A stretch of 64,000 bases of DNA from Cephalothrix simula (Eukaryota > Nemertea > Palaeonemertea > Archinemertea > Cephalotrichidae): positions 17,371 to 81,370 of the forward strand of contig JAXIUW010000008.1 of the NCBI GenBank assembly GCA_035591015.1. The letters are read 5' to 3'. Position numbers and translations under genes: made by a program. Shown in pieces: positions 24,079-57,326 of this stretch. A model generated the notes under the pieces. That model did no database searches. It was not told the DNA's origin and saw only the letters and a list, made by a program, of their open reading frames with translations. Positions within the stretch are counted from its first letter, which is position 1. The number at the start of each line of letters is the position of its first letter.

Positions 24079-25776
24079 TTATTCATCAAGGGATACTACA
24101 ACTATAGAGCTCATTCTTTGCGCCGTGTTCCTGCTGTCAGGATACCAAAAAATTATACTCTCACGTGCAGAACTAGAAAGTTTGCCGACAATTACATTAT
24201 TGCCACGGTAGGGCATGGGTACGGGAAACTCTTCGGCAATGGGGTCATCCCAGTCTGGGCCGTCAGCACTATTCTTGTAAATGCTGATGGTGTTTATATA
24301 TTGGTTGATGGCCAGATCACGCCAACCATCGCCATTTATATCAGGGCTAATCAGTATGGGGCGATTTTTTCGATTATCGTTTTCTATCTCAAGGGTTAAA
24401 CTTTCGGTTGAAAAATTTTTCAGTTCTGTATCTTCCCAGCGATATAAACTAGCATCCATGCTAATCGTGTCCATGGTTAAAGCTCTGATTATTGAAAATA
24501 AATTTATGCTTGTGGTCGCCACTAAAACCCAAGCCTCGTTGTTATTATTGACTAATGGGTAAATACTTTCTATAAAAGCTGGCCCTTCGCTGAATAACAA
24601 TTGAGGCGTTACGGTTAGCGAGTACTGAGCATTTTCATCAAGGCCATAGTGCAGGCTAACGTAGTTTTTTTGTTTGAAAAGGCTGTTACGGTTAACAGTT
24701 CTTAGCAATAAAATATCGTTGATTCGATCATCGTTGATGTTGACAATAGAGCGAATTGTACGATGCTCATTTGCATCAGGTGCGGCATAGTCACCAATAG
24801 ATACATGAGTTGGAACCAGCAAATCCTCTGTATTGTAAAGGTCTTCTAAGTGATTATGCTCTTCCCACAACTCAGGGCTAAAAGAATCTAAACTCTCAAG
24901 TACTTCACGCATATCTGCGGTTGATTGAAAGCCCATATTTTTGCTTAAGGCAGCAATCCATTCTGAAGGCACTCCATTTTCTACTAGGCGGGCAATGTTG
25001 TTCTTGCTGAGTACATACTCAAAGTACGATGGATTAGCTTTAGTTAGATGATTATAGGTTACGTTTAACGAATAACTTCCGGGCTGTATGAGATCTGGCA
25101 GACCATCGGCATTGATGTCTTTCCACAGAAAGCTCGGATATGATCGCCTCGCTGTCAGGCCACCCCAGTCGCTCACGCCAACACCATCACCCGAGTACCA
25201 CAGATACTGGGCTATCGGCACAAACATATTAAAGTCATTTAATTTGAATAATTGAAGCGCATCACTTCCATGAATGAAGATGATTGGCTCATCGCCGCCA
25301 TTAATGCTGCCTTCGGCAGTGCTGGCCACCAAGCGCAGTTTTGAAGGCAAAAAGGTTGTTCCACCTGCAAAAGCAGTTTCACAGCTGCAACTTCGTAATA
25401 GGTTGAATTGCTGAGCATTTTCGTCAAGCTCTGCTACCCAGAGTGTGTCATCTTTAAGCACTAACCAGCGAGCTACTCCACGATGAATATCAATAAACTC
25501 TACCCAGCGGAAAGACCGATCTAGAGTCATTTGCAGAGTTTCAACCAGTGTATTTTCACGAACTCGTAGCAGTGATAGCTTCTGCGATTCAACAAAGGGC
25601 ATATAGCCGTGCATAACCATGATGGCCGGCTCTTCAAGGGCTACATACTGAACGCCTCTAACTACTTGCTCAAACTGATGCTCAAGTAGTTGCATACCAT
25701 CATTATCGGCATGCGCATTGTGTCCAAAAACAAAAAATTGACAAAATATAAATAAAATTAGTGACTTTGCACGCAT
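24079..25776 (-). CDS. Secreted FG-GAP/VCBS-type repeat protein
   Basis: The 565 residues start with a Sec signal peptide (cleavage after HNAHA near residue 23). Calcium-loop motifs typical of FG-GAP/VCBS beta-propellers occur at DINADGLPDLI, DINGDGWRDLA and the degenerate NINDDRINDIL, so a seven-bladed propeller is likely. Two cysteines (SCSCE) sit near residue 128. Function is unknown; such proteins bind ligands or partners at the cell surface or in the periplasm. It is the last gene of the minus-strand run that begins with the mreB-like gene, 61 bp after the outer-membrane protein gene. Confidence 0.8.
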   Translation of the reverse strand: MRAKSLILFIFCQFFVFGHNAHADNDGMQLLEHQFEQVVRGVQYVALEEPAIMVMHGYMPFVESQKLSLLRVRENTLVETLQMTLDRSFRWVEFIDIHRGVARWLVLKDDTLWVAELDENAQQFNLLRSCSCETAFAGGTTFLPSKLRLVASTAEGSINGGDEPIIFIHGSDALQLFKLNDFNMFVPIAQYLWYSGDGVGVSDWGGLTARRSYPSFLWKDINADGLPDLIQPGSYSLNVTYNHLTKANPSYFEYVLSKNNIARLVENGVPSEWIAALSKNMGFQSTADMREVLESLDSFSPELWEEHNHLEDLYNTEDLLVPTHVSIGDYAAPDANEHRTIRSIVNINDDRINDILLLRTVNRNSLFKQKNYVSLHYGLDENAQYSLTVTPQLLFSEGPAFIESIYPLVNNNNEAWVLVATTSINLFSIIRALTMDTISMDASLYRWEDTELKNFSTESLTLEIENDNRKNRPILISPDINGDGWRDLAINQYINTISIYKNSADGPDWDDPIAEEFPVPMPYRGNNVIVGKLSSSARESIIFWYPDSRNTAQRMSSIVVVSLDE

Positions 25777-25837: not shown

Positions 25838-26764
25838 CTATAAATATAATCTGAATAATAATACCAGCAGATTGCTATCAGGCATGCCCTTAGATAGAAA
25901 AGGCTTTTCAAACTTCAGTCGCAATTCTAGTGGTAGCTGACTTTCATTATCAAGCACTGACTGCCAATTATCCCAGCCAAAGCTAAAGCCGGCTTTATAG
26001 TAATTACCTGAATCATTTAGAATTTCTCTGTCTAACTTACTAGCACCCATCCAGCCCATGCCAAGCTGTATGCCAACTATGTAGCTGCCAAAGAACATAT
26101 CAAAACTGGTATCAACCAATAGTTCATAGCCACGAGTATAGTCAACCCTAGCAGTTGAGTTCCACGGAGTTATCTTGAAGGGTATGCCGTAGACATAACT
26201 GACGTGGCCTGATAGCACCGCCTGAAAATCAGTAAAATAATACGAGTATGTGCCTTGGAGCACTGCGGCGGGGCCGGGCTTATCAATTTGTAATGAATGG
26301 CGATTATAAAAGCCCTTGGCAAAGGCAAAGGGAGTTTCAATCCATAATTCGCCAATAACTTTTTGAAAAGAGTTATACGAAAACTGATAAGCTGTACCCA
26401 CGCTGATATTGCCAAAGCGACCGATGGTGCGGTTGCCGAAATGCTCAATGAGGTCTTGACTAACGCCGCCGATAGAGCCTTTTTGAACGCCAACCCCGTA
26501 AGACGTTTTTAATAATATGTCCCAGCGGTCGGTTATTCCGTAGCCGAGGTTCATCCGCAGTATATGATACTGCTGCTCAAGGTTGCCAGTAGCGGCATCA
26601 CCAAGGGCTAGGGTAGATAAATTGCCATGACTGCCGTCATTCAGGTAGGCGGTATTTTGAAAGTTAAACTGATAGTCCCAGTCAAACTGCCAAACTGCGG
26701 TTGGAATAGCCCATGCAAGGCTAGGCCAAACTATAAAAACCGTAATAAACCAAATTCTTAACAC
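25838..26764 (-). CDS. Predicted outer-membrane beta-barrel protein
   Basis: The 308 residues have a signal peptide (PSLAWA|IP near residue 19). Alternating hydrophobic/polar strands follow throughout, rich in Tyr, Gly and Phe (ILRMNLGYGITDRWDILLKT; SVGTAYQFSYNSF; YIVGIQLGMGWMG). The C terminus ends in LLVLLFRLYL, the type of hydrophobic last strand used by the Bam machinery, though not with a final Phe/Trp. No named family is certain; it resembles short DUF3187-like barrels. The GTG start overlaps maf by 7 bp, so it is coupled to the cell-shape operon. Confidence 0.75.
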   Translation of the reverse strand: MLRIWFITVFIVWPSLAWAIPTAVWQFDWDYQFNFQNTAYLNDGSHGNLSTLALGDAATGNLEQQYHILRMNLGYGITDRWDILLKTSYGVGVQKGSIGGVSQDLIEHFGNRTIGRFGNISVGTAYQFSYNSFQKVIGELWIETPFAFAKGFYNRHSLQIDKPGPAAVLQGTYSYYFTDFQAVLSGHVSYVYGIPFKITPWNSTARVDYTRGYELLVDTSFDMFFGSYIVGIQLGMGWMGASKLDREILNDSGNYYKAGFSFGWDNWQSVLDNESQLPLELRLKFEKPFLSKGMPDSNLLVLLFRLYL

Positions 26765-27369
26765 TGTATTTCCTTGTGGGCGATACCAATGGCCTGTTGT
26801 TGAATCAAAACATCGTAAAGCTCTTCAATGGGCAGGCCAACTACGGCATTATAAGAGCCTTCAATGCGCTTAATCATTAGGCTCGCCCAACCCTGAATGG
26901 CGTAGCCACCGGCCTTATCTAGCCCTTCGCCGCCGGCAGCATAGGCTTTAATTAACTCACTTGGCAGTTCTTTGAAGGCTACCTTAGTTTTTGTAGTTCG
27001 TACAATATGCTGTTGGCACTGGCTGTCAATAACGCAGAATGATGACAAAACAAGATGCTCAGAGCCTGAAAGCTGATTAAGCATCGCATAGCATTCGTCT
27101 TTAGATGATGGCTTGCCCAAGATATTGCCGTTGATGCAGACTATTGTATCGCCAGCAATGATCACGGCATCAGTATCTACGGGGCAGCGCAAAGCCTTTT
27201 CAGTAGCCATGCGTTGAGCGTAGGCAAGAGGCTCTTCGTGCGGATAGGGCTGTTCATCAATATTAACGGCTTGAGTATTGAAGGTTAGCCCCATTTGCTC
27301 AAGCAATAGCTTTCGGCGTGGTGATTGAGAAGCCAATATTAGACTACGATACTGAACAATAAAGCTCAT
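26758..27369 (-). CDS. maf: Maf family nucleotide pyrophosphatase
   Basis: Maf proteins hydrolyse non-canonical or modified nucleoside triphosphates and are linked to septum and shape genes. Signs: LILASQSPRRKLLLEQMG at the N terminus, IIAGDTIVCINGNILGKP, the conserved YAAGGEGLDKAGGYAIQGWA and EGSYNAVVGLPIEEL. I start at ATG 27369 (203 residues), one base after the mrdA stop; an upstream in-frame start would add 13 residues inside mrdA. The mrdA-maf linkage is common in bacteria. Confidence 0.93.
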   Translation of the reverse strand: MSFIVQYRSLILASQSPRRKLLLEQMGLTFNTQAVNIDEQPYPHEEPLAYAQRMATEKALRCPVDTDAVIIAGDTIVCINGNILGKPSSKDECYAMLNQLSGSEHLVLSSFCVIDSQCQQHIVRTTKTKVAFKELPSELIKAYAAGGEGLDKAGGYAIQGWASLMIKRIEGSYNAVVGLPIEELYDVLIQQQAIGIAHKEIQC

Positions 27370-27370
27370 A

Positions 27371-29284
27371 CTAGGGAAAAACTCGGTCAAGATTATTACG
27401 GAAACCAAGCTGCTGGTTGTTGATTAGATCAGAAGGCACAGCCAAAGAATTATAGAGAGGATTAGACAGTGGCTGAATATTTTCGTGGTAAAAAGTAAAT
27501 ATCTTATCAGCTAAAGGCACCGCTGTTCTAACCGATGAGCCACCATGCTCAACCACTACAACTACAGATATTTGCGGGTCGTAAGCAGGGGCAAAGCCAA
27601 CAAACATTGAGTGTGGTTCAAACTCTGGGCTGTCTGCGTTGTTATTACGACGGCTAACCACCTCTACAGTACCTGTTTTGCCAGCCACATCAAAGGGCAA
27701 GCTATTTAATTGCTTGGCAGTGCCATTAACTACTGCCTGCCGTAAACCCTGTTTAACTACAGAGAAATAATAGCTGTTTATGGCTGCATTTTGCCAGTTT
27801 GGCGAGTTATCTTCAATATCATACACGGTTTGCTGTTCACTATTGACGATTTGCCTTATTACTGAAGGCCGCGGAGTAGAGCCCTCGTTGGCTAGAGTAT
27901 TTATATAATATAGCAACTGCATCGGAGTAGCTGCCATAAAGCCCTGCCCAATGGCAAAGTTTACCGTTTCACCACTAAACCAGCGCTCACCAAGGGTGGC
28001 TAGCTTCCACTCTGTAGAGGGCACTAAACCCGGTTTTTCTGCGCCTAGTTCAGAGTTAACAACCTGCCCAAAACCGAGTCGTGCGGCATAATCAGCAATA
28101 ACATCAGCCCCTAACTCATAGCCTAATTTATAAAAAAATACGTTGCAAGAAACGGCCAAGGCTTCTTTAACATTAACCATGCCATGGCCACTACGCAAAT
28201 TGCAGTAGAACGTTTTTGAACCAATGTTGAAGTGGCCGGGGCAGTCAAGCTCTGTATGTTCGTCAATAAGACCTTCTTCAAGAGCGGCTAAAGCCACTAT
28301 GGGCTTAAAGGTTGAGCCCGGCGAATATAGCCCATGAATAGCACGATTAAAAAGCACATGGCTGTTATTGTTTATAAATTCAGACCATTCACCCTCTTCC
28401 ATGCCATCTGAGAAAATGTTGGGGTCATAGTCCGGAAAGCTGGCAAAGGCTAGTATTTCTCCAGTTTGAGGATTACTAACTAGCACAGAGCCGACTCTAT
28501 CTTCAAAAATCTTTTTGATATAGGCTTGTAGGCGCAGATCAACGGTTAGCCAAATATTTGAGCCCGGTTGAGGAATAATCGGTGCTCCGGTTACGCTAAG
28601 CTGGCGACCAACGTTATCAACAACAACCTGCTTGCCGCCATCTACACCAACTAAATCGGGGTTAAGCGTTTTTTCAATGCCTGATTGACCACTAACACGC
28701 CCTGAGTAAACCCGATCTAAAGACATACCCCGCAATTCTTGTTCACTAATTTCGCCTACATAACCAGTTACATGCGCTGCTACATCAGCACTGGGGTAAA
28801 GCCGTCGTGATTCAACAACCACCCGTACTCCGGGTAGATCAGTTGAGTAGGTGTCTAGCAAATCGGCCATATTGCGACCAATGTTCTCTAAAATTACTAC
28901 GGGCTTAAAGCGTGGTCGCTGGCGGTTAGATTCTATTTTTTGGCGCAGATCTTTGATGTCAATCTTGGCTATGCGTGAAAGATTATTAAGGGTTAAGTCA
29001 AGATTATCAGTGTCTTCAGGAATTATTTCTACCCGAAAGGCAGGGCGGTTATAGGCTAATAATTCACCGTTACGGTCATATATTGTGCCACGCAATCCCT
29101 CTAGGGGCAGTACTCTAACTCGGTTGCCAGTAGAGATTTCTTCGTAGTGTTCGCCCTGCATAACCTGCAAATACCACAGCCTAGCAATTAAAACTAAGAA
29201 CAGTAGCAAAAAGAAGCCTAGTATGACTAGTGTGCGCAGGCGCACTTGCTGAACTTCGTTATTGCTCATTAAAGATATTTTCAT
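27371..29284 (-). CDS. mrdA: Penicillin-binding protein 2 (elongation transpeptidase)
   Basis: PBP2 is the class B transpeptidase of the rod elongation complex. The 637 residues show one N-terminal membrane helix (~15-38), the dimerisation/pedestal domain, and the transpeptidase with SxxK in GLYSPGSTFKPIVALAAL, SxN in AVSCNVFFYKLG and KTGT in DVAGKTGTVEVV. Length matches the family. Its ATG overlaps the mreD stop by 4 bp. rodA, often next, is absent; maf takes its place. Confidence 0.95.
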   Translation of the reverse strand: MKISLMSNNEVQQVRLRTLVILGFFLLLFLVLIARLWYLQVMQGEHYEEISTGNRVRVLPLEGLRGTIYDRNGELLAYNRPAFRVEIIPEDTDNLDLTLNNLSRIAKIDIKDLRQKIESNRQRPRFKPVVILENIGRNMADLLDTYSTDLPGVRVVVESRRLYPSADVAAHVTGYVGEISEQELRGMSLDRVYSGRVSGQSGIEKTLNPDLVGVDGGKQVVVDNVGRQLSVTGAPIIPQPGSNIWLTVDLRLQAYIKKIFEDRVGSVLVSNPQTGEILAFASFPDYDPNIFSDGMEEGEWSEFINNNSHVLFNRAIHGLYSPGSTFKPIVALAALEEGLIDEHTELDCPGHFNIGSKTFYCNLRSGHGMVNVKEALAVSCNVFFYKLGYELGADVIADYAARLGFGQVVNSELGAEKPGLVPSTEWKLATLGERWFSGETVNFAIGQGFMAATPMQLLYYINTLANEGSTPRPSVIRQIVNSEQQTVYDIEDNSPNWQNAAINSYYFSVVKQGLRQAVVNGTAKQLNSLPFDVAGKTGTVEVVSRRNNNADSPEFEPHSMFVGFAPAYDPQISVVVVVEHGGSSVRTAVPLADKIFTFYHENIQPLSNPLYNSLAVPSDLINNQQLGFRNNLDRVFP

Positions 29285-29781
29285 TTTTTTATCCTTGAGC
29301 GTCGCCCCTTAAATAGTAATGGTTTGGTTACGTAAAGCAAGTGAATGCCGGCCATGATTAGTAGCCCCAGCACAGTTTGCAATAATACCGAATTAACAAA
29401 CATTGCCCACCATTCAGTCTCTGAATACAAAGTCTGATACAGGGTTAAAGTTATACCGCCTTCAATTATACCAAATAAAAGCATGATGAAGTACAGCGTA
29501 TAAATTGATTTATCGTACATAAAACTAATAACAAACGTACCAATTAGAACCGTTGTAATGTAGGAAGCAATATGTAAGCCCAGTATGTTTTCACTATCCA
29601 TCAACAAACCCAGCGCAAAGGCATAGGCAAAGGGGTTGTGTTTATCATCATTGAGGGCAAAGTAGGCCAAAGCCATTACCGGAAAAATTGGCTTTATGCC
29701 CCAAACTGCCAAGGCGGGCGCAACAACAATTTGCAGGCAGTAGATAATTAGGCTAATTGCGGCAACCTTTAGAACATTCAT
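29281..29781 (-). CDS. mreD: Rod shape-determining protein MreD
   Basis: This small membrane protein of the elongasome has 166 residues and about five hydrophobic helices (LIIYCLQIVVAPALAVWG; FAYAFALGLLMDSE; TVLIGTFVISFMYD), which fits MreD. The family motif of a helix ending G-D/L-L-D in the middle appears as ALGLLMDSENILG. I start at ATG 29781, since the in-frame codon before it is TTG. Coupled to mreC (9 bp) and mrdA (4-bp overlap). Confidence 0.9.
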   Translation of the reverse strand: MNVLKVAAISLIIYCLQIVVAPALAVWGIKPIFPVMALAYFALNDDKHNPFAYAFALGLLMDSENILGLHIASYITTVLIGTFVISFMYDKSIYTLYFIMLLFGIIEGGITLTLYQTLYSETEWWAMFVNSVLLQTVLGLLIMAGIHLLYVTKPLLFKGRRSRIKK

Positions 29782-29790
29782 CAACTTTGG

Positions 29791-30666
29791 TTATTCATCA
29801 TTATCACTAGGCAGTAAAACATAAACATTTTCAATACGATTAAAATTTACGGCAATATCAACGGTAGCATTTTTGAATAGTTCATGCTGCTCACTTTGCA
29901 CTGCTTCAATAGTCCCCACCAGCAGCCCTTTAGGGAATATGCCGGCCATGCCACTGGTAATAACCTCATCACCAACCTTAATTTCGGCTAGTTTGCGGAT
30001 TCGATCTACCGCCAGTCCTAAACCATCACCGGCGGCAATGCCTTTGTCTTGAGGAATAAGCAATACATCATCATTATTGCCGACAACAACCATTCTATCG
30101 CGGGTGCGGCGCACTAAAACAGGAAATCTATGCCGGCGGTCAGTAATTAATTGTACCGTAGAGCGCAGAGGCGAGACTGTTTCAATGCGACCAACTACTC
30201 CCTCACGCACGATTACCGGATAATTACGCTTGATGCCTGCCTGACTACCACGATTAATGATTAAGATATGATTAAAATTCTCAACTGATTCACCGACTAT
30301 CTCTGAATAAACGCTTTTTAATGGTTGCTTTTGAGGAAAATCAAGCTGTTCTCTGAGTAGCTTGAACTGAATAGCGTCATTTTCATATTGGTTTAGCTTT
30401 TCATTGAGGAGCTTATTTTCTTCAATAAGGCGTTTATTTTCAGTTTGGGTATTAATCAGCACGACATAGTCATCAATTAAACCACCGATGCTACTGGTTG
30501 AATTATGAACAAACTCTTGTACGGGGAAGGTTATTGTGGCCAAGGCATCATAGAGAAAGCTAAAATTGACACTAAATTTGGCACGCATAGATAGAGCCAC
30601 ACCTGCGCTAACTAACACAGTGGCAATGATAATTACTATGCGATGTCTTTTAAGTAGCCTCAGCAT
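29791..30666 (-). CDS. mreC: Rod shape-determining protein MreC
   Basis: MreC links cytoplasmic MreB with periplasmic PBP2. The 291 residues include one membrane helix (~9-27), a coiled coil at ~75-110 (LINTQTENKRLIEENKLLNE) and the beta-rich domain with NFNHILIINRGSQAGIKRNYPV, REGVVGRI, VQLITDRRHRFPVLV and VGDEVITSGMAGIFPKGLLVG. All are family signatures. It starts 13 bp after the mreB-like gene. Confidence 0.94.
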   Translation of the reverse strand: MLRLLKRHRIVIIIATVLVSAGVALSMRAKFSVNFSFLYDALATITFPVQEFVHNSTSSIGGLIDDYVVLINTQTENKRLIEENKLLNEKLNQYENDAIQFKLLREQLDFPQKQPLKSVYSEIVGESVENFNHILIINRGSQAGIKRNYPVIVREGVVGRIETVSPLRSTVQLITDRRHRFPVLVRRTRDRMVVVGNNDDVLLIPQDKGIAAGDGLGLAVDRIRKLAEIKVGDEVITSGMAGIFPKGLLVGTIEAVQSEQHELFKNATVDIAVNFNRIENVYVLLPSDNDE

Positions 30667-30678
30667 ACTTTAGATAAA

Positions 30679-31581
30679 TTATGTTACAGAAATTTTTGAA
30701 CCCGGTAGCAATTTTAACGCTTGCAGGCATAATAATTCAACTGGATTATCAGCAGTTTTGAAGGGCAGCCCCAAACTTGATGATAATGTTTCAGCCAATC
30801 CCTCAATTAATGCACCGCCACCAAGCAGCTGTACACCCTGTTGTTTAGCCTGTGGGGCTAGTTCTGGGGGTAGCTCTTGCAGACATTCTGAAAAGATTTG
30901 CAAAATTAAACCCATATAATCTTCTAGGCAGTCATAGACCAGTGCTAGGTTAACAATGAGGCGGTTTTTTCTTTTATTGATAACATTAATGCTGAATAAT
31001 TCAGTTTTAAGAGGCTTTGCGCTGGGCAGTAGCGAGATGCACTCAAAAATTAATCTAAGTGCATCGTCATCACTGACGGTGATTTTATATTTTTTTTCTA
31101 GGCTCTCAATGATTAACTTAGCCAGATTGTTAAGGCCAAACTCAATCCGCTGGAATGAAATTAACTCACCTTTATAAACCATGCCAGCAGCAATTTTGCT
31201 ATAGCCAACATCTATATAAAGATTTAGGTCACGCTCATGGCTCAATATTTGAGGCGCGCTAAGCCAGTGGGTTTGATTTATACCCGCTTCACGTAAAGTG
31301 TAAGTCATATTTTCACGATCAGCGGCGGGTATGTTAGGCTCTGCAATTAGATAAATGCGGTTTAAGAAGCGTGGCATTGCGGCATGTTTGGCCAATATGT
31401 GTTCAATCAGCTCACAAAAGGCCATCATGTTATTGATTCTAAAGCCCATAACGGCGGGCAGGGGCTCTAGTGCAGACTTAAATTTATCGGTTCTGAGTAC
31501 AATTAATCTTTCATTATTAACACTAAGAATGCGTGTATTAAAGCTCCCTAAGTCAAGGATTAATTTGTTGATAAAACGCAT
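30679..31581 (-). CDS. Degenerate MreB-like actin-fold protein
   Basis: The 300-residue protein sits directly upstream of mreC, where mreB usually lies, and aligns with MreB along its length. LILDLGSFNTRIL corresponds to phosphate loop 1 ([10 protein letters not shown]). LPPELAPQAKQQGVQLLGGG ALIEGL corresponds to [20 protein letters not shown] of the intact copy at 56280. Phosphate loop 2, DIGGGTTE in real MreB, is replaced by DVGYSKIAAG, and the central region is strongly diverged. ATP turnover and polymerisation are therefore doubtful. I start at ATG 31581; a GTG at 31617 would add 12 residues. A PilM/FtsA-type actin fold is a weaker alternative. Probable role: partner or regulator of the elongasome. 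Confidence 0.8.
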   Translation of the reverse strand: MRFINKLILDLGSFNTRILSVNNERLIVLRTDKFKSALEPLPAVMGFRINNMMAFCELIEHILAKHAAMPRFLNRIYLIAEPNIPAADRENMTYTLREAGINQTHWLSAPQILSHERDLNLYIDVGYSKIAAGMVYKGELISFQRIEFGLNNLAKLIIESLEKKYKITVSDDDALRLIFECISLLPSAKPLKTELFSINVINKRKNRLIVNLALVYDCLEDYMGLILQIFSECLQELPPELAPQAKQQGVQLLGGGALIEGLAETLSSSLGLPFKTADNPVELLCLQALKLLPGSKISVT

Positions 31582-31591
31582 AGTGCTATGC

Positions 31592-31620
31592 TTGACTTTG
31601 TTTGTGCGTAAAGGCACTAT
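31592..31620 (+). promoter_or_regulatory. Candidate promoter for tRNA-Phe
   Basis: TTGACT at 31592-31597, a 17-bp spacer, then CACTAT at 31615-31620, about 44 bp before the tRNA. The -35 is good and the -10 only half matches. It overlaps the 5' end and upstream region of the minus-strand mreB-like gene. Confidence 0.35.
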
Positions 31621-31663: not shown

Positions 31664-31667
31664 GGCG

Positions 31668-31705
<38 letters not shown>

Positions 31706-31739
31706 CGTGTCGGCAGTTCGATCCTGTCTCTCGCCACCA
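31664..31739 (+). tRNA. tRNA-Phe (GAA)
   Basis: A complete cloverleaf of 76 nt: acceptor GGCGAGA pairs with TCTCGCC, D arm GCTCAGTTGGTAGAGC, anticodon stem GAGGA/TCCTC with loop CTGAAAA and anticodon GAA at 31697-31699, and T arm with GTTCGATCC. The 3' CCA is encoded (31737-31739). Confidence 0.98.
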
Positions 31740-32055: not shown

Positions 32056-32931
32056 ATGGCTTCAGAGATTAAAATTGGCATAATCGGTGGCAGCGGATTT
32101 TATTCTTTGGTTGACGCAAAAAATATTGTAGAGCACAGAATTAACACGCCTTACGGCAATATGTCTGATGCCGTTATAGAGGGCAATATAGCCGAAACAA
32201 AGGTCTTTTTTTTAGCACGCCACGGCCAAGGTCACAGTTATTTGCCTAGCGAAATACCCTTTTTAGCGAATATCTGGGGGCTAAAGAGCTTAGGTATTAC
32301 GCATTTAATATCGGTTTCAGTGGTGGGCAGCTTGGTAGAGGGAATAAAACCCGGACATATTGTTTTTCCAGATCAATTTATAGACTGCACTCGCCGCCGT
32401 GAAACAACCTTCTTTGGAAAAGGTATAATTGGGCATGTTTCTATGGGAACGCCAATTTGCCTAGAACTGCATGACTTACTGGTTGAAAAAGCTCAAGGTT
32501 TGGCGATTAAGCATCATCGTACAGGTAGCTATGTTTGCATTGAAGGCCCCAGATTTTCTACACATGCAGAATCAAAGCTATTTGCTAGCTGGGGTGGTAG
32601 TGTGGTGGGTATGACCAACATGCCCGAGGCTAGTTTGGCTCGTGAAGCAGAAATGTGCTATGCAACATTGGCTTTGGCCACAGACTACGATAGTTGGCGC
32701 GGAGCTGATCATGCTGTTAATGTAGGCGATATAATAACCATAATGCGTCAGAACATTGAAAAATCGGTGCAGATTATTAGTGAAGCCGTGGTTGATGTTG
32801 CTACTGCCACTACTGACACGTGCGGCTGTCGGAATGTGTTAGATAGCTCTATATATACTCCGCGTGAGGCGATTAAGAGCCAAGTTTTTCAGCGCTTAGA
32901 GCCTATTTTAGCTCGCTACATGGATAAGTAA
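32056..32931 (+). CDS. mtnP: S-methyl-5'-thioadenosine phosphorylase
   Basis: The enzyme cleaves methylthioadenosine to adenine and methylthioribose-1-phosphate for methionine salvage. The 291 residues show IGIIGGSGFYSL, FLARHGQGHSYLPSEIPF, LISVSVVGSLVEGIKPGHIV, YVCIEGPRFSTHAES and MTNMPEASLAREAEMCYATLAL, with the NMPE and late DYD (ATDYDSW) substrate motifs of MTAP rather than purine nucleoside phosphorylase of the PNP-I type. It precedes rodZ by 15 bp. Confidence 0.93.
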   Translation: MASEIKIGIIGGSGFYSLVDAKNIVEHRINTPYGNMSDAVIEGNIAETKVFFLARHGQGHSYLPSEIPFLANIWGLKSLGITHLISVSVVGSLVEGIKPGHIVFPDQFIDCTRRRETTFFGKGIIGHVSMGTPICLELHDLLVEKAQGLAIKHHRTGSYVCIEGPRFSTHAESKLFASWGGSVVGMTNMPEASLAREAEMCYATLALATDYDSWRGADHAVNVGDIITIMRQNIEKSVQIISEAVVDVATATTDTCGCRNVLDSSIYTPREAIKSQVFQRLEPILARYMDK

Positions 32932-32946
32932 AACCTAGTTACTACA

Positions 32947-33759
32947 ATGAACGATAATTCAAATCTGCTTCAAAATGAACAGCTAACCAAAGTGGGCACT
33001 CGTTTGCGTGATGCTCGTGAAGCTAAGGGAATTAGCATAGAAGAAGTTGCCAGTTCTAGTCGCATCAATAGGGTTTACATTGAGCAAATTGAAAATGGCA
33101 TGCTTAATACGCAACTAGGTGCAGTGGTGGTGCGGGGGTTTGTGCGCATCTATATAAAATTTTTAGGACTAGGTGAAGAATTAGAAGCAGAGCTGAGCCT
33201 AGTTACTGCCGGCGACGCAAAAGAAGAAAATCAATTTCAGGTTGCACGCCGTATGGATTATCTTGTTGTGTCAGAGAAAAAGCTGTTTACACCGCTGCGA
33301 TTGGTTATTGCTCTATTTCTGCTGGCAGTGGTTAGCGGTTCAGTTGTTACCTACCAGTTACTAGATAGCTCTGAGCAACAAGTTGTTGAAGAAGCTGTTG
33401 AAGAAGTGGTTGAAGAACCAGAGGCTGTTGCCGTAGAAGAAATACCAGAGTCGCCGGCTCCAATTGGTGAAATAGCCAATAGCATAAGTGATTTAAGCAT
33501 ATTAAAGGTTTCTGTGCGGGGGCTAGAGCCAACCTGGATTAGAGTTTCGGTTGATCGGGCTGAACCACAAGAATTCTACGTTACTCAAGATGAAGTGCTC
33601 AATTGGGATTGTGAAGAAGAAATAGTCTTCACCATAGGCAACTCAAGTGGGCTGAGTATTTTGATGAATGGCGAAGAAATAGTCATTCCGCCGGGGCCCA
33701 AGCAGCTGATTACTGACATGACGCTTAATCGCCTGACCCTATTTCGGCTACAAAATTAG
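32947..33759 (+). CDS. rodZ: RodZ-like cytoskeletal HTH membrane protein
   Basis: RodZ anchors MreB to the membrane. The 270 residues comprise an N-terminal Xre-type HTH (~15-75: VGTRLRDAREAKGISIEEVA; VRGFVRIYIKFLGL), a membrane helix at ~118-138 (LVIALFLLAVVSGSVVTYQL), an acidic Val/Glu linker (~143-165) and a C-terminal DUF4115 beta domain (LKVSVRGLEPTWIRVSVD; WDCEEEIVFTIGNSSGLSIL). It is encoded on the opposite strand from, and 1.3 kb away from, the mre operon. Confidence 0.9.
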   Translation: MNDNSNLLQNEQLTKVGTRLRDAREAKGISIEEVASSSRINRVYIEQIENGMLNTQLGAVVVRGFVRIYIKFLGLGEELEAELSLVTAGDAKEENQFQVARRMDYLVVSEKKLFTPLRLVIALFLLAVVSGSVVTYQLLDSSEQQVVEEAVEEVVEEPEAVAVEEIPESPAPIGEIANSISDLSILKVSVRGLEPTWIRVSVDRAEPQEFYVTQDEVLNWDCEEEIVFTIGNSSGLSILMNGEEIVIPPGPKQLITDMTLNRLTLFRLQN

Positions 33760-56279: not shown

Positions 56280-57326
56280 ATGAAAGAATTTTTTGGTAAC
56301 TTGGGCAGAGCCCTGCGTAGTGATATGGCCATTGATTTAGGCACGGCCAATACTCTGGTTTATGTGCGAGGGCAGGGTATAGTTGTGCGTGAGCCATCTG
56401 TGGTGGCCGTAAAGCAAGATGCTCGTGGCGAATACAAGGTATTGGCGGTAGGCCGTGAGGCTAAAACCATGCTTGGGCGTACTCCGGGCAGCATAACGGC
56501 GATTAGACCCATGAAAGATGGAGTTATTGCCGACTTTCAAATTGCAGAAGAAATGCTGCGCTATTTTATTAAGCAAGCTCAAAGGCAGAACTCATTTATT
56601 AAGTTTAAGCCCCGCATTATAATCAGCGTGCCCTCGGGCATCACTCAGGTTGAAAAACGTGCTGTCCGTGAATCGGCAGAATCGGCTGGAGCCAAAGACG
56701 TTTTCCTGATTACAGAACCGATGGCAGCGGCGATAGGCTCTGGCCTACCAATTTCAGAACCCAGTGGCAATATGATTGTTGATATTGGCGGTGGCACAAC
56801 GGAGGTTGCGGTAATCTCATTGGCAGGCATTGTCTACAGTGACTCGGCACGTGTGGGTGGCGATCGCATGGATGAGGCCATTATTCAGTATATTAAGCGT
56901 CAGTACAACATGCTGATTGGTGAACGCTCGGCTGAAGAGATTAAAATCAATATTGGCTCAGCCTACCCTAATCCAGAATCCTCAGTTTATGAAATAAAAG
57001 GCCGTGACTTAGTCACCGGAATACCCAAAACCCTTATTCTTACCGATACAGAAATCAGGCAAGCTCTGTCTGAAGTCTATGACAGCATTGTTGAAACCGT
57101 TAAGAATGCCCTAGAAAAAATCCCACCAGAGCTAGCAGCCGATATTGTTGACAAAGGCATAGTGATGGCCGGGGGCGGTTGTATGCTCTCGGGCATGGAT
57201 GTTCTGCTGCGTGAACGGACGGGTTTACCAATCATTTTAGCTGAAGATCCGCTATCTTGCGTGGTATTGGGTACTGGTAAAGCACTTGATCATATTGATC
57301 TATTGCGTAGCGTGGCTATGACCTAA
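56280..57326 (+). CDS. mreB: Rod shape-determining protein MreB (intact copy)
   Basis: The bacterial actin that guides lateral wall growth. The 348 residues have an intact nucleotide site: [81 protein letters not shown] and [15 protein letters not shown]. It stands alone between an isomerase and the riboflavin genes, not with mreC. Compare the degenerate copy at 30679-31581. Confidence 0.97.

Follow-up and report, generated by a model that had tools for sequence, protein, structure and literature searches.

What fills the mreB position of an mreBCD–mrdA operon when a normal mreB lies elsewhere in the same stretch of DNA, and what could its product contribute to wall synthesis? This is the question raised by the window (the whole stretch of 64,000 nucleotides analysed here), in which a preliminary description had placed an MreB pseudo-ATPase directly before mreC. 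As far as it can be read from sequence, the operon MreB together with the separate normal MreB suggests a two-part shape cytoskeleton, undescribed for these wall-building bacteria.

The operon-slot gene and its genomic context

The genes of the window that are relevant here are the following:

26758–27408, minus strand: maf, last gene of the operon and conserved there in SAR324
27371–29284, minus strand: mrdA, encoding PBP2 (TIGR03423, 628 bits)
29281–29784, minus strand: mreD (TIGR03426, 36.5 bits against a cut-off of 34.85)
29791–30666, minus strand: mreC
30679–31581, minus strand: divergent mreB paralogue without the ATPase motif ("DIV" MreB), gene 1 of the operon; ATG start, with an alternative GTG start at 31617
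31664–31739, plus strand: tRNA-Phe (GAA), between the divergent mreB and mtnP
32056–32931: mtnP, divergent from the operon
32947–33759, plus strand: rodZ (HTH_25 and RodZ_C), like mtnP divergent from the operon
56280–57326, plus strand: canonical mreB with its catalytic motif intact (E146, T173, E175), preceded by argJ and a thioredoxin-fold/isomerase-like gene

The divergent frame is intact on the minus strand from either start (30679–31617 with GTG, 30679–31581 with ATG), and the longest open stretch in the other five frames across it is at most 79 codons. It lies 12 bases upstream of mreC, after which mreD, mrdA and maf follow. A frameshift or pseudogene artefact was rejected, given the intact frame and the presence of the gene in the same slot in relatives. 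Beyond maf, the minus strand encodes an FG-GAP repeat protein and a 308-aa protein without Pfam match (24079–25776 and 25838–26764); FG-GAP relatives are also found downstream of the operon in three other genomes (G016, G008, and G009). The mtnP–rodZ pair (32056–33759) stands divergently beside the operon in two further genomes as well (G012 and G009; loci L168 and L169); next to the operon of G008, or of those SAR324 genomes whose operon mreB is canonical, it was not found.

Family placement of the divergent protein

The product of the slot gene is indeed MreB-like, passing the Pfam MreB_Mbl model (PF06723) with 72.7 bits (3.2e-20, cut-off 27), and a profile search recovers it as the second MreB of the window's genome (71.4 bits). 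The intact mreB at 56280–57326, also noticed in the preliminary description, reaches 485 bits with the same Pfam model and keeps the motif E146/T173/E175. Three further MreB-profile matches in the genome lie in frames of 646, 417, and 596 codons, which are the sizes of DnaK/HscA and FtsA. The divergent protein stays under the NCBIfam MreB cut-offs (TIGR00904, 56.0 vs 365.75; NF010539, 59.9 vs 293), shares 17% identity with the window's own MreB in the alignment and retains 24 of the 101 residues that are near-invariant in MreB. Other actin-fold families were considered and rejected, namely FtsA (18.2 bits vs a cut-off of 31.8), PilM (PilM_2, 10.7 vs 27; TIGR01175, 12.1 vs 133), and MamK and BeeR, to neither of which the profile search gave a match. 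A confident placement in PilM or FtsA, which the preliminary description had named as the result that would speak against it, did not occur, both being under their cut-offs and MreB_Mbl above its own. Genome contigs, viral contigs, and plasmids contained no match when searched directly with the protein, and a PHROGs search returned weak matches only.

The solved structures nearest to the protein by sequence are MreBs. An AlphaFold2 model of moderate quality (pLDDT 67, with residues 12–71 below 50) was built from an input alignment of MreBs, which biases it; searched with Foldseek, this model gave MreB or Mbl as all of its best 25 matches, and VIA gave Z values up to 20.3. Given this origin of the model, the fold result supports the placement without being independent of it.

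Distribution among SAR324 genomes

A single bacterial 16S gene occurs in the assembly to which the window belongs (8.6 Mb, 580 contigs); it is 87% identical to those of two genomes (G013 and G014) whose phylum also provides, among the loci fetched, the best matches of the window's canonical MreB and PBP2. This phylum, that of Candidatus Lambdaproteobacteria RIFOXYD2_FULL_50_16, we take to be SAR324, a group of uncultured bacteria, and the window belongs to it.

The same arrangement appears in 9 of the 52 SAR324 genomes searched (G007–G010 and G012–G016), with a divergent MreB in the mreB slot and the gene order mreB*-mreC-mreD-mrdA-maf; mreC and mrdA follow in all nine, and mreD and maf where detected. 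For the nearest relatives, available as drafts split into many contigs, linkage was read up to the contig ends. A profile of the divergent family scores 464–490 bits in these nine genomes and at most 291 in the other SAR324 MreBs, a bimodal distribution; because the profile was built from the same nine copies, the gap to the remaining MreBs is its informative part. With hhalign the window protein matched this profile at E 3.6e-21 (probability 99.4), compared with 2.2e-11 (97.3) for the canonical one, and it has four of the eight residues diagnostic for the divergent family. The best scores among 150 Pseudomonadota genomes and 148 genomes of a second phylum (that of G003) were 266 and 274, respectively, with no divergent-type MreB in either, and a lateral source in these two phyla was rejected on the strength of the 298 genomes sampled.

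A canonical mreB is located elsewhere in eight of the nine genomes, the ninth (G010) having yielded only a fragment of a canonical-type gene. In seven genomes argJ and/or the isomerase-like gene adjoins it, as in the window, and in G013 the contig is too short to show its neighbours. The operon slot is occupied by a canonical mreB in SAR324 genomes G001, G034, G038, and G054. A second, catalytically intact mreB is also seen in several other SAR324 genomes (L185, L186, L187, L188, L191, and L192), and both copies keep the catalytic motif in G034, G036, G038, G043, G046, and G054, so that MreB duplication seems to be common in SAR324. Apart from these, one Magnetococcales genome (G005) has three extra MreB-family genes (L098, L103, and L109; 67–69 bits), possibly MamK-like, and one canonical MreB. 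An MreB derivative in the operon slot, a canonical copy kept elsewhere and the conservation of this arrangement in SAR324 relatives agree well with the earlier proposal that the gene was duplicated and turned non-catalytic.

Catalytic residues lost and motifs retained

Four sites within the divergent gene are referred to below:

30814–30822, minus strand: adenine-site GGG, retained
30856–30870, minus strand: PPELA motif, retained
31189–31212, minus strand: degenerate phosphate-2 loop DVGYSKIA (canonical DIGGGTTE), in which Lys replaces the catalytic Thr and Ala the acidic residue
31255–31257, minus strand: codon of Ala109, at the catalytic Glu position (CcMreB E140)

The preliminary description had reported a degenerate phosphate-2 loop next to a preserved adenine-site GGG and PPELA helix, and the alignment bears this out, with DVGYSKIA in the operon copy vs DIGGGTTE in the intact MreB and both motifs present. 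Three losses of the window copy were absent from that description: the catalytic Glu is replaced by Ala, the adenine-site Lys by Ile, and subdomain IB is shortened, the segment from the P1 loop to the end of IB being 21 residues vs 46, with about half of IB gone.

Two residues of CcMreB, E140 and T167, hold the attacking water in place (PMC4051119); with E169 as third member they make up the motif E...T-x-[D/E], which is present in 95.8% of MreBs outside Spiroplasma and needed for Pi release (PMC9597168). The canonical MreBs in our alignment have the Glu in 86/87, the Thr in 87/87, and the Asp/Glu in 87/87. The picture is different in the ten divergent copies (the nine SAR324 relatives plus the window copy): the Glu site reads A, A, A, S, I, A, I, L, S, A (lost in 10/10), the Thr site K, K, K, S, K, K, R, K, K, T (lost in 9/10, with Lys in 7/10), and the acidic site lacks an acidic residue in 10/10. 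Despite this catalytic loss, the copies retain GGG, PPEL, and several residues specific to the family. The relatives also keep P1 and the adenine GGG, all nine retain the adenine-site Lys and seven of the nine the phosphate-2 GGG triplet, both of which the window copy has lost; their IB regions are full-length (46–58 residues), with low similarity or rich in proline/glycine in several of them. The idea that relatives would share the loop loss stands for the catalytic Glu, Thr, and acidic residues, lost family-wide, and fails for the glycine loop, degenerate in the window copy and intact in most relatives. By these alignments the family-wide event is the loss of the catalytic E...T-x-[D/E] set, and since the relatives keep the adenine Lys and mostly the phosphate-2 glycines, while the window copy has lost both, a loss of nucleotide binding would apply to the window lineage alone. 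A separate case is a Nitrospirota MreB (L030:7407-8468, plus strand) with Gln for the catalytic Glu and the other catalytic sites canonical.

Evolutionary history

All nine divergent copies fall into a single clade, which joins the SAR324 MreBs (96.8% SH-aLRT, the only support measure, in a tree with very long branches). The window copy was left out of the final tree, its placement by tree having been rejected as uninformative at a branch length of 10. Divergent copies pair like the canonical ones (G012 with G013, G009 with G016), and their distances correlate with those of MreC (Mantel r 0.51, P 0.004), canonical MreB (r 0.47, P 0.017), and PBP2 (r 0.47, P 0.017), as expected under vertical descent. 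Their mean identity is 38%, vs 84% for the canonical copies, which indicates weak constraint; MreC and PBP2 stand at 55 and 56%. The window's canonical MreB nests within the canonical clade of the divergent-copy genomes, so that by descent this genome should carry the divergent gene. From synteny and the tree we infer that duplication came before decay in the slot. The slot, the catalytic losses, the conservation in ten genomes, and the vertical inheritance can all be read from the sequences themselves.

RodA in the divergent-copy genomes

The RodA of seven divergent-copy genomes (G013, G014, G015, G009, G012, G007, and G010; L224–L231) has about 70 extra residues before a conserved LRPYQxxRLxTFxNP stretch, presumably at the start of the large periplasmic loop. 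The insert is absent from G001, G034, G038, and G054, and the match in G016 is split in the same way. The insert is a change of the elongasome specific to this lineage; it coincides with the divergent MreB a single time on the tree, which is no proof that the two are connected. No RodA turned up in the 8.6 Mb assembly that contains the window, although mreC, mreD, mrdA, and mreB are present; the sole SEDS protein found was FtsW (G000:C1:63996-65045, 51% to the FtsW of G014), and the missing RodA may be an assembly gap.

A putative scaffold and its rivals

We consider it fairly probable that an MreB was duplicated in SAR324 and that the operon copy, by analogy with known systems, became an ATPase-impaired and stable partner within the Rod complex. 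The duplication would have given two MreBs in one clade; the operon-slot copy lost its hydrolysis residues (Glu, Thr, and acidic) and has since evolved fast, the argJ-side copy staying canonical. The operon-encoded protein would be an actin subunit that hydrolyses ATP very slowly or not at all, as Spiroplasma MreB3 and the Bacillus paralogues suggest. Bound to canonical MreB and to the MreC/RodZ/PBP2–RodA complex, it would serve as a stable scaffold or anchor, and filament turnover would fall to the canonical MreB. In the window lineage nucleotide binding was probably lost too, which would make the protein a structural adaptor. E. coli MreB touches the cytoplasmic part of PBP2 and the RodA tail (PMC13327600), and Bacillus MreB paralogues copolymerise (PMC7641798); together with the MreB3 parallel, these contacts favour a scaffold or adaptor that does not turn over. 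Position and conservation also suggest that the divergent MreB may be the new elongasome component that the preliminary description had supposed.

The main rivals to this scaffold are a filament cap and a decaying duplicate. An Arp-like cap or nucleator would bind one end of the canonical filament at MreC/PBP2 and set its start or stop, with no copolymerisation along the filament. IB shifts toward IIB on polymerisation (PMC4051119), and the near halving of IB in the window copy, like the low-similarity or proline/glycine-rich IB of several relatives, would suit such a role, as would the grouping of the gene with mreC and mrdA while the canonical mreB is unlinked; the full-length IB of the relatives argues against it, and we regard it as unlikely. 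That the gene is a redundant duplicate under relaxed constraint, retained mainly as the first gene of an essential operon and with the window as end state, would explain its very fast evolution (38% vs 84% identity), the few near-invariant residues left in the window copy and the failure to find RodA in the same assembly. Yet the gene is unbroken in ten genomes separated at the level of orders, its losses fall on the same catalytic residues and spare GGG, PPEL, and several residues specific to the family, and the divergence is phylogenetically coherent, all of which makes simple decay quite unlikely. Least credible is an active ATPase or nucleotide switch with a rewired active site, acting as a second dynamic MreB. 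The relatives do retain P1, mostly the phosphate-2 glycines, and the adenine GGG and Lys, but the Glu and the acidic residue have given way to varied, mostly small or hydrophobic residues in 10/10, and the window copy is also without the phosphate-2 glycines and adenine Lys, so that we give it very little credence.

Comparison with known systems

MreB paralogues are already known, and so is one ATPase-poor MreB. In Bacillus, Mbl and MreBH retain the ATPase motif and have diverged far less than the SAR324 divergent copies. They provide a parallel as several MreB paralogues, able to copolymerise, in one wall-building cell (PMC7641798). The closer parallel is Spiroplasma MreB3, which has Asp, Lys, and Ser at the three catalytic sites and slow ATPase activity and Pi release, and has been proposed as a stable anchor for other MreBs (PMC9597168). 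Like it, the SAR324 protein is a paralogue without E...T-x-[D/E] that coexists with an active MreB and carries Lys in place of the Thr and a small residue in place of the acidic one; the window copy has the MreB3-type K at the Thr site and A two residues further, and Ala in place of Asp at the Glu site, where the SAR324 copies have Ala, Ser, Ile, or Leu. Spiroplasma is wall-less and uses MreB3 in swimming, whereas the SAR324 copy sits inside mreBCD–mrdA in a bacterium with PBP2, and the window copy has additionally lost the phosphate-2 glycines and adenine Lys. With canonical MreBs (PF06723; C. crescentus 4czj and T. maritima 1jce) it shares the Pfam match, GGG, PPELA, and the operon position, and may share the fold, as far as a model biased by its MreB alignment can indicate, whereas the low identity, the missing motif, the shortened IB and the scores below the NCBIfam cut-offs set it apart. 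Other two-copy SAR324 genomes resemble the window in having two MreB genes, one of them in the operon in G034, G038, and G054, and differ in the motif kept by both copies. We found no paper on a SAR324 MreB or an MreB pseudo-ATPase in the literature searched, nor a catalysis-dead MreB in the mreBCD–mrdA slot across a wall-building clade.

More tentatively, and as an extension that we would sooner doubt than accept, the Rod-complex actin may have split in one clade into two obligate parts, a dynamic canonical MreB and a fixed, hydrolysis-dead adaptor, accompanied by the RodA insert, with the window lineage furthest along and nucleotide-free. A hydrolysis-dead MreB encoded with MreC, MreD, and PBP2, the active MreB being apart, would represent a natural, clade-wide separation of scaffold and turnover, and a way to test which step of wall synthesis needs ATP hydrolysis by MreB. 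Such a two-MreB system would be a bacterial parallel to the actin-related proteins.
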